Positions 14,572-44,520 of a DNA stretch of 46,798 nucleotides are shown here, piece after piece. The position numbers and the translations under genes were made by a program. The stretch is from Myxococcales bacterium (GTDB lineage: Bacteria > Myxococcota_A > Polyangia > Polyangiales > Houyiibacteriaceae): the NCBI GenBank assembly GCA_019637115.1, contig JAHBWH010000053.1:1-46798 (forward strand). The letters are read 5' to 3'. Under the pieces are notes generated by a model. That model searched no databases. It was given only the letters and a program-made list of their open reading frames with translations, and was not told the origin of the DNA. The first letter of the stretch is position 1; each line of letters opens with the position of its first letter.

Positions 14572-16401
14572 TCAGCTCGCCGCGGCCGCTCGACCGACCA
14601 CCGCCACCCGACGTTCGCCCTCTTCCTCGGGCCGCGAAGCGGCCCTCGGGCGCTCCACCTCGCCCGTCGGAGGCGCGCCCACGACCGCGTCGTGCACGCG
14701 CAGGGTGTGCCCCGCCGAGCCGAGCTTCTGCCACAGCCCGCTGCGCTCCATCACCTCGCGCACCGGTCCCTTCACCCCCGCCAGCACGAGGTCGATGCCG
14801 CGCTCGCGGTAGGCGTGCCAGAGCTCGGCGAGCGCTGCCTCGGCCGACGAGTCGAGCTGGTTGATGCTCGTCGCGTCGAGCACTACGCGGCGCAGGCGCT
14901 CCTCCATCGCGAGCTCCTCCTTCTTCAGCGTCTCCTTCAAGAAGGTGACGTTGCCGAAGTAGAACTGCGCGTCGATCCGCAGCGCGAGCACGCCAGGCGT
15001 GCGCTGGGCGTCGGGGTAGTTCGCGACGTTGCGATACTCCTCGGTGCCCGGCAGGCGACCGAGGATCGCCACGTGCGGCCGCGTCGTCCGGACCACGAAG
15101 GCGACGAGCGAGGCCCCGACGCCGACGAGGATGCCCTCCTCGATCCCGAGGGTGAGCGTCGCCACGAAGGTCGTGACCAGCAGCGCGAGGTCGGTCCGCT
15201 TCACCTTCCAGAGGTGCTTGACCTCGTGGACGTCCACGAGCCCGGCGACCGCCGTCAGGATGATCGCGGCGAGGACCGCACGCGGCAGGTAGTAGAAGAG
15301 CGGCGTCAAGAAGAGCAGCGTCAGCCCCACGACGGCCGCCGTGATGAGGCTCGCGAGCCCCGTCTTCGCGCCAGCCTGTGCGTTGACCGCCGTGCGCGAG
15401 AAGCCACCCGTGACCGGGTAGGCGCCAAAGAACGAGCCGGCCACGTTGGCCGCGCCGAGGCCGACGAGCTCCTGGCTCGGGTCGACCTCGTAGCGGTTCA
15501 TGCGGGCGAAGGCCTTGGCGACGCTGATCGACTCCATGAAGCCGACGAGGGCGATGGTGATCGCGGTCGGAAGCAGCGCCTTCAACGCCGCCGCGTCGAG
15601 CGTCGGCAGCGAGGGCGAGGGGAAGCCCGCCGGCACGTCGCCGACGATCTTGACGCCCGCGTCCTGCAACCCGAGCCCGAAGACCGCGAGGCTGCCGAGC
15701 ACGACGACCGCGAGCGCGCGCGGGAAGCCCTTCTTCCAGCGCTTCATTCCCTCGAGCAGGACGATCGAGCCAGCGCCGAGGGCGACCGTCGCGACGTGCC
15801 ACTGCGAGACCGACGAGACGGCCGCGCCGACCTTCGTGAAGAGGCTCCCGCCCGGCAGCTCCACACCGAGGACATGGCCGAGCTGGCTCGCCCCGATGAT
15901 GAGCGCCGCGGCGCTCGTGAACCCGCTGATCACCGGGTGCGAGAGGAAGTTCACGAGGAATCCGAGCTTGAAGAAGCCCATCCCCATCTGCAGCACGCCG
16001 ACGACGAGGGAGAGGCCGATCGCGTAGGCGATGAAGCTCTCGGTGCCAGGCTCGGCGATGGTCGCGACACCCTGCAAGGTGAGCAGAGAGACCATCGCGA
16101 CGGGGCCGACGGCGAGCTGGCGCGAGGTGCCGAGCAGCGCGTAGACCGCGAGCGGCACGACCGAGGCGTAGAGGCCGATGATGGGCGGGAGCCCTGCGAG
16201 CATCGCGTACGCCATGCCCTGCGGGATGAGCATCACGGCGGTGGTCAGGCCGGCCGAGACGTCGCCGCCGAGGTTCCGGCGGTCGTAGCCTGGCAGCCAC
16301 GTGAGGAAGGGCAGGAAACGACGTGCGCCCTTCGGCGGAGGTTGTGGCCGGCCGAGGTCGACCGCCGAGGTCGACTCCGCCGTCGTGCCGCCGGAGGTCA
16401 T
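14572..16401 (-). CDS. SulP family anion permease with STAS domain
   Basis: A 609-aa inner-membrane transporter. About a dozen hydrophobic segments run from residue 45 to about 430, including the SulP signature region LGGDVSAGLTTAVMLIPQGMAYA and the later VAGSFFGAYPVTGGFSRTAVN; a cytoplasmic STAS domain follows (about 455-570: LALRIDAQFYFGNVTFLK, then VVLDATSINQLDSSAEAAL). SulP proteins move sulfate, bicarbonate or other anions by symport or exchange. The ATG overlaps the stop of the upstream YeeE-like gene by 4 nt (16398-16401), and the cluster context (YeeE/YedE pair and persulfide dioxygenase) points to sulfate or another sulfur anion. It is last in the minus-strand operon. Confidence 0.93.
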   Translation of the reverse strand: MTSGGTTAESTSAVDLGRPQPPPKGARRFLPFLTWLPGYDRRNLGGDVSAGLTTAVMLIPQGMAYAMLAGLPPIIGLYASVVPLAVYALLGTSRQLAVGPVAMVSLLTLQGVATIAEPGTESFIAYAIGLSLVVGVLQMGMGFFKLGFLVNFLSHPVISGFTSAAALIIGASQLGHVLGVELPGGSLFTKVGAAVSSVSQWHVATVALGAGSIVLLEGMKRWKKGFPRALAVVVLGSLAVFGLGLQDAGVKIVGDVPAGFPSPSLPTLDAAALKALLPTAITIALVGFMESISVAKAFARMNRYEVDPSQELVGLGAANVAGSFFGAYPVTGGFSRTAVNAQAGAKTGLASLITAAVVGLTLLFLTPLFYYLPRAVLAAIILTAVAGLVDVHEVKHLWKVKRTDLALLVTTFVATLTLGIEEGILVGVGASLVAFVVRTTRPHVAILGRLPGTEEYRNVANYPDAQRTPGVLALRIDAQFYFGNVTFLKETLKKEELAMEERLRRVVLDATSINQLDSSAEAALAELWHAYRERGIDLVLAGVKGPVREVMERSGLWQKLGSAGHTLRVHDAVVGAPPTGEVERPRAASRPEEEGERRVAVVGRAAAAS

Positions 16402-16874
16402 GCCGCCTTCTCCGCGTTGCTCGAGGCGCGCTCACGCTGGCGCGATCGCAGGTTGTCGAGCTGCTGGAAGAGGAACATCCCGCCGAACATGCCGGCGACC
16501 ATGATGAGCGCCTTGCTCGACATCGCGCCGACGCTGGTCAGCGCCGGCCCCGGGCAGAAGCCACCGAGCCCCCAGCCGAGGCCGAAGAGCGCCGCACCCG
16601 CGACGAGTCGGAAGTCGATGTCGCGGCGGGTCGGCAGGCGGAAGCGGTCCTCGAGGAGGGGCCGCGCGCGGCCCTTCACGAAGCGATACACGGGCAGGTA
16701 CACGAGCATGCCGCCGCCCATGACGAAGGCGAGGCTCGGGTCCCAGCTCTCGAGTCCGCGAGAGAAGTCGAAGAATCCGATGACCTTCGCGGGGAGGGTC
16801 ATGCCGCTGAGGGCGAGGCCGGTCGCGAAGAGCAACCCGGTCCCGAAGGCGGAGAGATGGGCTTTGGGGGTCAT
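16398..16874 (-). CDS. YeeE/YedE-type (DUF6691) membrane half-protein
   Basis: A 158-aa membrane protein with four hydrophobic segments and the conserved GWGLGGFCPGPAL (Cys107), the hallmark of the second half of YeeE/YedE transporters. In many bacteria a YeeE/YedE transporter is split into two short genes and sits beside a persulfide dioxygenase; full-length YeeE (TsuA) takes up thiosulfate through conserved Cys residues. GGAG lies 9 nt before the ATG. The gap to the upstream partner gene is 22 nt, and its own stop overlaps the SulP start, so the three genes form one operon. Confidence 0.9.
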   Translation of the reverse strand: MTPKAHLSAFGTGLLFATGLALSGMTLPAKVIGFFDFSRGLESWDPSLAFVMGGGMLVYLPVYRFVKGRARPLLEDRFRLPTRRDIDFRLVAGAALFGLGWGLGGFCPGPALTSVGAMSSKALIMVAGMFGGMFLFQQLDNLRSRQRERASSNAEKAA

Positions 16875-16896: not shown

Positions 16897-17328
16897 TCAG
16901 ATCGTGCCGCCGAAGAAGGTGGTCACGGCGAAGACCATCGCCGCGGCGGTGGCCATGAAGGTGAGTACGGCGACCAATGATCGCCCCGAGAACCGGCTCA
17001 GACCGCAGATGCCGTGGCCGCTCGTGCAGCCGTTGCCCATCTGGGTGCCGAAGCCGACGAGGACGCCCGCTGCGAGCAGCGCAGGGACGCTGCGATCGAT
17101 CGTGACGGCGAACGACTCGGGCGAGAGCAGCCCATAGACGACGCCGCCGGTGAGCAGCCCTGCGACGAAGAGCACGCGCCAGAGGGTGTCGCCGGCGCCC
17201 GCGCGGAGGACCCCGCCGGTGATGCCGCTGATGCCCGCGATCCGGCCGTTCAGGACGAGCATCGCGGCCGAGGCCAGCCCGATGAGCAGGCCGCCCAGCA
17301 GAGAGGTGAGAGGGGTGAAGTTCTCCAT
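16897..17328 (-). CDS. YeeE/YedE-type membrane half-protein
   Basis: A 143-aa membrane protein with four hydrophobic segments and the conserved [17 protein letters not shown] motif (Cys101, Cys108), the first-half signature of YeeE/YedE sulfur-compound transporters. Together with the 158-aa partner it would make a complete two-Cys transport path, as shown for thiosulfate in TsuA. The ATG at 17328 was chosen over an upstream in-frame start at 17427, whose added residues look non-native (MLLLLLIG, then Pro-rich). First gene of the minus-strand operon, divergent from the MBL genes. Confidence 0.9.
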
Positions 17329-17496: not shown

Positions 17497-17550
17497 GGAG
17501 CCGTGGCACGACGTTTCAGCGGCTCCGGTACATCGTCGCGCAACGTTTCA
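17497..17550 (+). promoter_or_regulatory. Putative enhancer (upstream activator) sites for the sigma54 promoter
   Basis: Two features lie 70-120 nt upstream of the predicted start site. ACGTTTCA is repeated in direct orientation at 17511-17518 and 17543-17550, 32 nt apart, which is three helical turns. GGAGCCG (17497-17503) and CGGCTCC (17520-17526) form a 7-bp inverted repeat with a 16-nt gap around the first copy. Position and phasing fit a bacterial enhancer-binding protein; the binding protein is not in this window. The rest of the 333-nt gap 17329-17661 has no other gene-like content. Confidence 0.4.
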
Positions 17551-17590
17551 CGCACACGCGCAACTCGCGAAAATCCTTTGGTCCGCTGGG

Positions 17591-17606
17591 TGGCACGTGG
17601 CCTGCA
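17591..17606 (+). promoter_or_regulatory. Sigma54 (-24/-12) promoter candidate
   Basis: TGGCACGTGGCCTGCA matches the RpoN consensus TGGCACG-N4-TTGCA at every position except the first T of the -12 element (C here); the invariant GG and GC dinucleotides are exactly 10 nt apart. Transcription would start near 17616, giving a leader of about 45 nt with AGGAGA 5 nt before the ATG at 17662. Confidence 0.6.
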
Positions 17607-17661
17607 CTACACCCCGACGACATCCGAGCTCACGACGAGCTCTCACCCCCAGGAGAACCCC

Positions 17662-18582
17662 ATGCAGATCCGCGCCTTCTACGACGAGCCGACCTACACC
17701 CTCACCTACGTCGTCTGGGACGAGGCCACCAAGGACGCCATCGTCATCGACCCCGTGCTCGACTACGACCCCCTCGCGTCGCAGACCTCGACCAAGTCGC
17801 TCCGCGAGCTCGAGACCTTCGTCATCGAGGAGGGGCTGAAGGTTCACTGGGTGCTCGAGACGCACGCGCACGCCGACCACCTCAGCGGCTCGCAATACCT
17901 GAAGGCGAAGCTCGGCGCGGGCGTCGTCATCGGCGAGCACATCCAGATCGTCCAGAAGACCTTCAAGGGGATCTTCGATCTCCTCGAGCAGTTCCCGACC
18001 GACGGGAGCCAGTTCGAGCATCTCGTCCAAGACGGTGAGACGTTGAAAGCTGGCTCGCTCGACATCGAGGTGATCGCGACTCCCGGCCACACGCCGGCGT
18101 GCGTCACCTACAAGATCGAGGACGCGCTCTTCACCGGAGACGCGCTCTTCATGGACGACTACGGCACCGGCCGCTGCGACTTCCCGGCCGGCAGCGCGAG
18201 CGATCTCTACGACTCGATCCAGAAGCTCTACGCCTTCCCGGACGCGACGCGCGTCTTCGTCGGCCACGACTACCAGCCCGGCGGCCGCGAGGTGAAGTGG
18301 GAGACCACGATCGGCAAGTCCAAGGCGAACAACCCGCAGCTCAAGGGCTCGACGAAGAAGGACGAGTTCGTGAAGATGCGCGAGGCTCGCGACGCGACGC
18401 TCGCCCCGCCGCGCCTCATCTTCCAGAGCGTGCAGGTCAACGTCGACGCCGGGCGCCTGCCCGACCCCCACGGCAACGGCAAGCGCTACCTCGCGCTACC
18501 CCTGAACCTCTTCAAGCCCACCGACGACCTCGGCGAGATCGTCGTCAAGGACCTGAAGGACGCGCGCGAAGCCGCCGAATGA
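17662..18582 (+). CDS. MBL-fold hydrolase of the persulfide dioxygenase/Blh group
   Basis: A 306-aa metallo-beta-lactamase-fold protein. The metal motif THAHADH puts His68, His70, Asp72 and His73 in place; [16 protein letters not shown] and [10 protein letters not shown] supply the remaining ligands. The C-terminal stretch ([18 protein letters not shown]) is typical of the Blh-like branch of bacterial persulfide dioxygenase relatives. The family oxidises glutathione persulfide to sulfite, or acts as a glyoxalase-II-like hydrolase; neighbours make the sulfur role more likely. AGGAGA precedes the ATG at 17662. It is first in an operon with the dioxygenase-rhodanese fusion 57 nt downstream. Confidence 0.88.
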
Positions 18583-18639: not shown

Positions 18640-19728
18640 ATGATCTTCCGACAGCTCTTCGACCCCGAATCCTCCACCTACACCTACCTGCTCGGGGACG
18701 AGAAGACCCGAAGCGCCATCCTCGTCGACCCGGTGCGCGATCAGGTCGAGCGCGACGCGCAGATCCTCGCCGAGCTCGATCTTCGACTCGAGCTCACGCT
18801 CGAGACCCACGTGCACGCCGACCACATCGCTGGGTCGGGGGTGCTCCGGCAACGCTTCGGCACGAAGTCCGTCATGAGCGAGGACGCTGGCGCGCAATGC
18901 GCCGACATCATGGTCGCGGACGGCCAACGGCTGGAGGTCGGCGCCATCCAGATCGAGGCGCGCAAGACGCCGGGACACACGAACGGCTGCGTGACGTACG
19001 TGGTCACCGAGGCTGGGAGCGACGCGCCTGCCAAGGTCTTCACGGGTGACGCACTGCTCATCCGAGGCTGCGGCCGGACCGACTTCCAGCAGGGCGACGC
19101 CGAGACGCTCTACGAGTCCGTGCACGAGAAGATCTTCTCGCTGCCCGACGAGACCTTCATCTACCCGGGTCACGACTACAAGGGGCGCACCGTCAGCACG
19201 GTCGCCGAAGAGAAGCGCCACAACCCGCGCCTCGGGGGCGGCAAGACCAAGGCCGAGTTCGTCGCCATCATGGGCGCGCTGAAGCTCCCACAGCCCAAGA
19301 AGATCGCGGAGGCCGTCCCGGCGAACCTGCTCTGCGGCGTGCCGCAGGCGGCCGATCCGCTCCCCGAGCGAGCGTGGGCACCCATCGAGCGCCGCGCCGA
19401 CGGCGTGCCCGAGGTCACGGTCGCGTGGACGCGCGATCACCTCGCCGAGCTCCGCGTGGTGGACGTGCGCGAGGAGGACGAGTTCCACGGCCCCCTCGGC
19501 CACATCCCGAACGCGGAGCTCATCCCGCTCGGCACGGTGGAGGAGCGGGTCCAGGCCTGGGACCGCGAACAAGCGATCGCCATCGTCTGCCGCTCGGGCG
19601 GGCGCTCGGGCCGCGCGGCGCTCTCGATGGAGAAGCTCGGCTTCCGGCGCGTCGTCTCGGTGCGCGGCGGCATGCTCGAGTGGAACCAGAAGGCGAGCGA
19701 GCCGGAGGCCCCCGTCCTCTGCGGATGA
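18640..19728 (+). CDS. Persulfide dioxygenase-rhodanese fusion
   Basis: A 362-aa cytosolic fusion. The N-terminal ETHE1-like domain (1 to about 235) has THVHADH (His57, His59, Asp61, His62), PGHTNGCVTY with His113, FTGDALLIRGCGRTDF with Asp137 and the RGCGRTDFQ signature specific to persulfide dioxygenases, giving the 2-His-1-Asp iron site. The C-terminal rhodanese domain (about 258-350) ends in the active-site loop VCRSGGRSGRAA with Cys317. Fusions of this kind oxidise glutathione persulfide to sulfite and use the rhodanese Cys to move sulfane sulfur to or from thiosulfate. With the YeeE pair and SulP next door, the cluster would import thiosulfate, handle persulfide and export or exchange oxidised sulfur. 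Confidence 0.94.
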   Translation: MIFRQLFDPESSTYTYLLGDEKTRSAILVDPVRDQVERDAQILAELDLRLELTLETHVHADHIAGSGVLRQRFGTKSVMSEDAGAQCADIMVADGQRLEVGAIQIEARKTPGHTNGCVTYVVTEAGSDAPAKVFTGDALLIRGCGRTDFQQGDAETLYESVHEKIFSLPDETFIYPGHDYKGRTVSTVAEEKRHNPRLGGGKTKAEFVAIMGALKLPQPKKIAEAVPANLLCGVPQAADPLPERAWAPIERRADGVPEVTVAWTRDHLAELRVVDVREEDEFHGPLGHIPNAELIPLGTVEERVQAWDREQAIAIVCRSGGRSGRAALSMEKLGFRRVVSVRGGMLEWNQKASEPEAPVLCG

Positions 19729-25962: not shown

Positions 25963-26013
25963 CGGCGCCTCGCGACGGCGCGCTTGCCGCCGCTGCCCAT
26001 CATCGACGACGGG

Positions 26014-26256
26014 CGACGCGCGGATGGCGACGCGCGGATGGCGACGCGCGGTTGGCGACGCGCGGATGGCGACGCGCGGATGGCGCCGCACGGATGGCGC
26101 CGCACGGATGGCGCCGCACGGATGGCGACGCGCGGATGGCGCCGCACGGATGGCGCCGCACGGATGGCGCCGCCGGATGGCGATGCGCGGATGGCGCCGC
26201 ACGGATGGCGCCGCACGGATGGCGCCGCACGGATGGCGCCGCACGGATGGCGCCGC
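26014..26256. repeat. 14-nt minisatellite, about 17 copies
   Basis: Head-to-tail units GGATGGCGCCGCAC and GGATGGCGACGCGC, about 17 copies with small defects, filling the gap between the convergent hydrolase lipoprotein and Mur ligase genes (25963-26323). Because 14 is not a multiple of 3, all three frames read RADGDARMA/APHGWR-type repeats, none of which I take as protein. Confidence 0.92.
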
Positions 26257-43117: not shown

Positions 43118-43148
43118 TCGTCGTTCCGTCGGGTTGGAACACCGAACC

Positions 43149-43406
43149 GGACTCGGACGGACTCGGACGGACTCGGACTCGGACTCGGACTCGGACTCGG
43201 ACTCGGAATCGGACTCGGAATCGGACTCGGACTCGGACTCGGACTCGGAATCGGACTCGGAATCGGACTCGGACTCGGACTCGGAATCGGACTCGGACTC
43301 GGAATCGGACTCGGACTCGGAATCGGACTCGGAATCGGACTCGGACTCGGAATCGGACTCGGAATCGGACTCGGAATCGGACTCGGAAATCGGACTCGGA
43401 ATCGGA
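43149..43406. repeat. GGACTC/GGAATC hexamer satellite, about 40 units
   Basis: About 40 units of GGACTC with GGAATC interspersed, never two GGAATC together. Both unit types contain GANTC (GACTC or GAATC). Only two 4-nt GGAC insertions at the left edge and one 7-nt GGAAATC break the period. It lies between the XRE terminator and the promoter of the M74 gene; open frames reading DSDSES or GLGIGL through it are not proteins. Confidence 0.95.
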
Positions 43407-43420
43407 CACGCGCCGGACAT

Positions 43421-44308: not shown

Positions 44309-44384
44309 CTCGGTCGCACTCGGGCGCGCTCGACGCGGGCGGGGCTTACCGCACCGTGGGCTCGGCCGACGGCCCCAGTCCCGA

Positions 44385-44520
44385 GACGCTGTCCCAAGAC
44401 GCTGTCCCAAGACGCTGTCCCAAGACGCTGTCCCAAGACGCTGTCCCAAGACGCTGTCCCAAGACGCTGTCCCAAGACGCTGTCCCGAGACGCTGTCCCA
44501 AGACGCTGTCCCAAGACGCT
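44385..44520. repeat. 13-nt minisatellite GACGCTGTCCCAA
   Basis: Eleven GACGCT occurrences at an exact 13-nt period (10 full units), with a single A-to-G change in two units. Located 71 nt before the start of the TPR gene. Confidence 0.95.

Follow-up and report, generated by a model that had tools for sequence, protein, structure and literature searches.

The window, meaning the whole stretch of 46,798 nt that was analysed, corresponds to contig C384 in a genome of 8.88 Mb. It carries genes for persulfide oxidation and for sulfur transport that diverge from a 333-bp intergenic region, between yeeE and blh, in which two sigma54 promoter matches lie on opposite strands and face outward. The features of the locus are as follows, from left to right.

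14572-16401, minus strand: sulP, SulP sulfate-permease family protein with a STAS domain
16398-16874, minus strand: yedE, second YeeE/YedE half (DUF6691, PF20398)
16897-17328, minus strand: yeeE, YeeE/YedE-type sulfur transporter half (Sulf_transp, PF04143)
17438-17423, minus strand: divergent sigma54 -24/-12 promoter TGGCACGCCCCGTGCT, toward yeeE-yedE-sulP, predicted transcription start about 17412
17497-17526: inverted repeat GGAGCCG (17497-17503) / CGGCTCC (17520-17526), flanking half-site 1
17511-17518, plus strand: candidate activator half-site 1, ACGTTTCA
17543-17550, plus strand: candidate activator half-site 2, ACGTTTCA, three helical turns (32 bp) to the right of half-site 1
17591-17606, plus strand: sigma54 -24/-12 promoter TGGCACGTGGCCTGCA, toward blh-pdo, predicted transcription start about 17615-17619
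17651-17655, plus strand: AGGAG, ribosome-binding site of blh
17662-18582, plus strand: blh, metallo-beta-lactamase-fold persulfide dioxygenase module, with a match to NCBIfam Blh (NF040641) over the dioxygenase portion of that model
18640-19728, plus strand: pdo, persulfide dioxygenase-rhodanese fusion

No regulator gene adjoining either operon was identified in the list of open reading frames. Many short tandem repeat arrays, with periods of 6 to 72, are scattered elsewhere in the window (26012-26256, 43148-43407 and 44378-44520, among others).

A preliminary description of this DNA had proposed a single sigma54 promoter, with GG-N10-GC spacing, for the persulfide-oxidation genes. Such a site is present: in TGGCACGTGGCCTGCA, a GG at 17592-17593 and a GC at 17604-17605 are separated by a gap of 10 nt (the GC had been placed at 17603, a slip of one base). 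It is, however, one member of a divergent pair, of which the minus-strand partner had been overlooked. Both members score 11 out of 12 against TGGCACG-N4-TTGCW, and their predicted transcription starts were taken about 12 nt beyond each -12 GC. The genome has one rpoN gene. A sigma70-like promoter was sought in the yeeE-blh region and none was found, and a search against Rfam gave no match.

Genome-wide, the strict 16-mer pattern TGGCACGNNNNNTGCW was found 25 times, versus 27 times for its reversed control, so that a lone copy of the promoter is little proof of function. Two of the 25 sites fall in the single 333-bp region, facing outward, where about 0.0009 would be expected.

The question that genome-wide counts could not settle was settled by the orthologs of blh. 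Of the 184 genomes searched in the order, 55 have such an ortholog, and 60 loci were compared together with their surroundings. A site was scored as conserved if it had the GG-N10-GC spacing, matched at least 10 of 12 positions and lay no more than 170 bp from the start codon. This was the case for 25 of the 60 orthologs, whereas 0.57 would be expected from random segments of the same loci (0.94% of them). We therefore regard TGGCACGTGGCCTGCA as a real promoter, and the comparison supports conservation across the order of a predicted sigma54 promoter for blh. Forward and divergent promoters are both present in the genus-mate G008, the one further genome of this genus in the set compared, and in G011, and G003 has the forward promoter with a weaker divergent version (10/12). 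In several genomes with yeeE-led operons, the sigma54 site lies upstream of yeeE instead. Of the 42 genomes in which blh and the activator described below occur together, 16 have no promoter recognised at 10/12.

The preliminary description had also pointed to a duplication of ACGTTTCA, 32 nt apart, and read it as a phased enhancer. Both copies are indeed there, positioned between the two divergent promoters, and half-site 1 would stand about 102 bp from both predicted transcription starts. Other copies of the pair, which it had been suggested to look for, were not found: the pair occurs once in 8.88 Mb. With the spacing relaxed, GTTTCA-N4-34-GTTTCA also occurs once in the genome, at the yeeE-blh region, and the reversed control pattern twice. 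A genome-wide regulon defined by the exact half-site pair was thus rejected, for want of a second locus. Among the other strict 16-mer sites only one (L023, at G000:C399:18283) has a half-site, a single GTTTCA inside another palindrome, and this site was set aside. It is a strict sigma54-like match that is preceded by the palindrome TTCACTTCCGAA...TTCGGAAGTGAA and lies near a degenerate sigma54-activator gene.

Inspection of relatives gave the repeats more weight. In the regions upstream of blh from 37 genera, GTTTCA ranked first of all hexamers (16 of 37, versus 7% of control segments), and GTGCCA, which is the -24 half of the promoter, ranked third. GTTTCA was present within 200 bp upstream of 29 promoters out of 39, versus 4% of random segments, with most copies 40-100 bp ahead of the -24 element. 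The spacings between copies of the same orientation were 10, 11, 12, 16, 20, 21, 31, 32, 41 and 44 bp; they cluster at multiples of about 10.5 bp (about 10, 21, 32 and 41). By randomisation, none of 100,000 draws was as phased, and 49 of 100,000 were when one pair was taken per locus. The 32-bp spacing recurs in G169 and G033. The genus-mate G008 retains this spacing and the interval up to the -24 element, and its half-sites are degenerate (ACGTCGCA, ACGTCTCA). These comparisons support the reading of the GTTTCA repeats as phased enhancer half-sites. The inverted repeat described around the first ACGTTTCA copy is present, but it is not conserved in the genus-mate; it is probably incidental, and GGAGCCG/CGGCTCC was rejected as an operator.

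In relatives, a sigma54 activator of the PAS-AAA+-Fis type adjoins blh and is often its immediate neighbour. An N-terminal domain with the motif LLCG...RPVAEAL is common to the homologs of this activator. The source genome has one full-length ortholog (G000:C90:44185-45456), at 64% identity; the next-best match begins only at the AAA+ domain. The gene of this protein, hereafter the C90 activator, is unlinked to the blh and yeeE genes and follows an acyl-CoA dehydrogenase gene. An unlinked activator of the FisR kind, for which a genome search had been suggested, was thus found, and its orthologs in relatives adjoin persulfide dioxygenase genes.

A search with the PAS domain only retrieved 39 loci, all from Myxococcota or, judged by title, from deltaproteobacterial MAGs of that kind. 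The relatives that carry a name are all Myxococcota, and the nearest include Sandaracinus. For 30 of the 39 loci, blh, pdo, yeeE/yedE or sulP lies within 5 kb, versus 0 of 20 for the other sigma54 activators of the source genome (p about 4e-9, leaving aside one distant SulP-family match of 29% identity). Among the 184 genomes, the activator is present in 64, blh in 55 and both in 42 (p 2e-14), and half-sites were found in 30 of the 42 blh genomes that have the activator versus 2 of the 13 that do not (p 5e-4). Since related genomes, such as those of one genus, do not count as independent, all these p-values overstate the significance and are guides only. One of the two half-site genomes scored without activator, G114, has a linked activator devoid of the PAS domain. 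Its gene (at locus L116), an open frame of 335 residues, spans the interval between 1159 and 154 bases ahead of a blh that has a sigma54 promoter, and its product is possibly constitutive. The activator was also sought in the G008 assembly (89% complete), in which the half-sites are degenerate, and was not found.

The N-terminal domain was modelled from the homologs, rather than from the C90 protein itself. The predicted model has a PAS fold (mean pLDDT 85.6), and its best PDB matches are PAS and LOV domains. One cysteine of the domain is conserved, in 35 of 36 homologs. The C90 activator has this residue, Cys53, and an unconserved Cys120.

The comparison with FisR of Cupriavidus, on which the preliminary description was built, held for the logic of the system and failed for membership. 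Like FisR, the C90 activator consists of an N-terminal PAS-like domain, an AAA+ domain and a Fis-type HTH, and its relatives are linked to persulfide dioxygenase genes, although the C90 gene itself is unlinked. For the FisR protein of C. pinatubonensis (JMP134), three conserved cysteines (PMC9774590) and a Cys53-Cys64 tetrasulfide (PMC9495516) have been described. In C. metallidurans CH34 (NC_007974, L173), FisR, with cysteines 53, 64 and 71, is encoded beside the dioxygenase gene, the product of which is 50% identical to the Blh of the window. In contrast to Cupriavidus FisR (Cys53, Cys64, Cys71), the C90 activator keeps one conserved cysteine, so that the intramolecular tetrasulfide described for FisR would be impossible. 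In a tree of the AAA+/HTH part, the single-cysteine proteins form one clade (support 0.98), and C. metallidurans FisR is placed outside it, together with a three-cysteine paralog (L185_2) from G001. No GTTTCA is present in the region upstream of C. metallidurans pdo.

Having one conserved cysteine and belonging to a separate clade, the C90 activator is not an ortholog of FisR. By the tests made, and with GTTTCA missing upstream of C. metallidurans pdo, it would be FisR-like in its layout and working without being a member of the family. A canonical three-cysteine FisR was looked for in the source genome and rejected: in a search with full-length FisR, the C90 protein was the only match to extend over the N-terminal part. 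In G001, three-cysteine FisR-like and single-cysteine activators stand side by side (L126, G001:C634). The fisR-pdo intergenic region of C. metallidurans (L173) contains repeated CTGCCAA units about 150-190 bases upstream of pdo, which may possibly be a FisR operator different from GTTTCA.

Cysteine loss in such activators has a precedent, since FisR of A. baumannii, a sigma54 activator that induces a PDO1-SQR operon on sulfide, is likewise reported to be without the Cupriavidus cysteines (PMC7315123). There, fisR is adjacent and divergent, and the operon includes SQR and TauE, whereas in the window the activator is unlinked. In the same species yeeE/yedE/pdo2 forms a separate BigR operon, whereas here yeeE/yedE and the dioxygenases share a predicted sigma54 control region. 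The bigR-blh and yeeE-yedE-pdo2 operons of Xylella and Acinetobacter contain the same enzyme and transporter families as the window, but they are controlled by the ArsR-type repressor BigR, whereas sigma54 activation is predicted here.

Consider RNA polymerase-sigma54 bound in closed form at the two outward-facing promoters. The C90 PAS-AAA+-Fis activator would bind the GTTTCA half-sites between them, which would lie on one face of the helix, three turns apart, the first being approximately equidistant from both predicted starts. Through DNA looping and ATP hydrolysis, it would open both promoters, with transcription presumably starting at the predicted positions. The trigger would most likely be reactive sulfane sulfur, in the form of persulfide or polysulfide, with Cys53 of the PAS domain as the point of detection. 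Of the gene products, some would oxidise persulfides and others would carry sulfur compounds through the membrane. We have good confidence in this scheme of a two-way sigma54 region opened by the C90 activator at GTTTCA half-sites, most likely in response to sulfane sulfur. Points that weigh against it are the unlinked position of the C90 gene, the degenerate half-sites of G008 together with the failure to find an activator in that assembly, the 16 of 42 genomes without a recognised promoter, and the single cysteine, which leaves no room for a FisR-type tetrasulfide. Its computed elements are the promoter pair and its conservation, the half-sites and their phasing, the linkage and co-occurrence of activator, genes and half-sites, and the PAS fold. 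Persulfide sensing, with Cys53 as the sensor, is suggested by the gene context and by analogy with FisR, bearing in mind that PAS domains bind many ligands.

For the myxobacterial clade at large, we see an even chance that activators with a single-cysteine PAS domain detect sulfane sulfur without the intramolecular tetrasulfide of FisR, through different chemistry such as a persulfide or a link between subunits, and drive divergent sigma54 promoters via phased GTTTCA. A literature search on the regulation of sulfur detoxification in the phylum found nothing; the present analysis names a regulator for it, together with the sites that this protein is predicted to bind and the genes that it targets. 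The C90 activator is also a natural single-cysteine counterpart to the three-cysteine FisR sensor, so that the number of cysteines needed by a persulfide-sensing sigma54 activator becomes directly testable by comparing the two.

The most serious alternative keeps the activator and changes its signal: the PAS domain would read redox state, oxygen, light or a flavin, and the persulfide genes would be only a part of the response. The closest PDB folds are LOV/PAS domains, some of them flavin-binding, and the single cysteine of the activator lies close to where LOV domains have theirs. However, the LOV signature GxNCRFLQ is absent, the genes linked in relatives are those of persulfide dioxygenases and sulfur transporters, and the exact GTTTCA pair is found nowhere else in the source genome. 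We consider another signal unlikely, while granting it more room than the remaining alternatives.

Somewhat less probable still is that the sigma54 promoters are real and that a different sigma54 activator, such as a phosphorylated response regulator, binds GTTTCA in response to another signal, for instance sulfur starvation or development. With 59 PF00158 matches in the genome there would be other candidates, the C90 gene is unlinked to the sulfur genes, and its binding to GTTTCA is a prediction. Against this, the C90-type clade is the only one linked to these genes in relatives, and the presence of half-sites tracks that of a C90-type activator.

Control by sulfane sulfur through the C90 activator may also be set against the idea that the sigma54-like sites and repeats arose by chance, and that the genes depend on a sigma70 promoter and an ArsR/BigR-type repressor, as in bigR-blh operons. 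Such regulation is known for yeeE/yedE/pdo2 operons elsewhere (PMC7315123), and across the genome the 16-mer pattern is no more frequent than its control. The order-wide conservation of the promoter, the divergent pair, the spacing conserved in the genus-mate and the failure to find a sigma70-like site make this very improbable. Least credible of all is a derivation of the GTTTCA repeats from ParB parS sites (GTTTCACGTGAAAC), as remnants or relatives: the half-site letters are the same and contig C391 carries four parS-like sites, but parS needs a 2-bp gap and inverted order, whereas the copies in the window are direct repeats 32 bp apart, GTTTCA keeps a set position with respect to the -24 element, and it is absent upstream of blh in most genomes without the activator, so that this origin was rejected on spacing and order.

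The four copies of the parS core on that contig lie within 1.9 kb (G000:C391, 51976-53834, L180-L183), and the cluster is probably a chromosome partitioning region.
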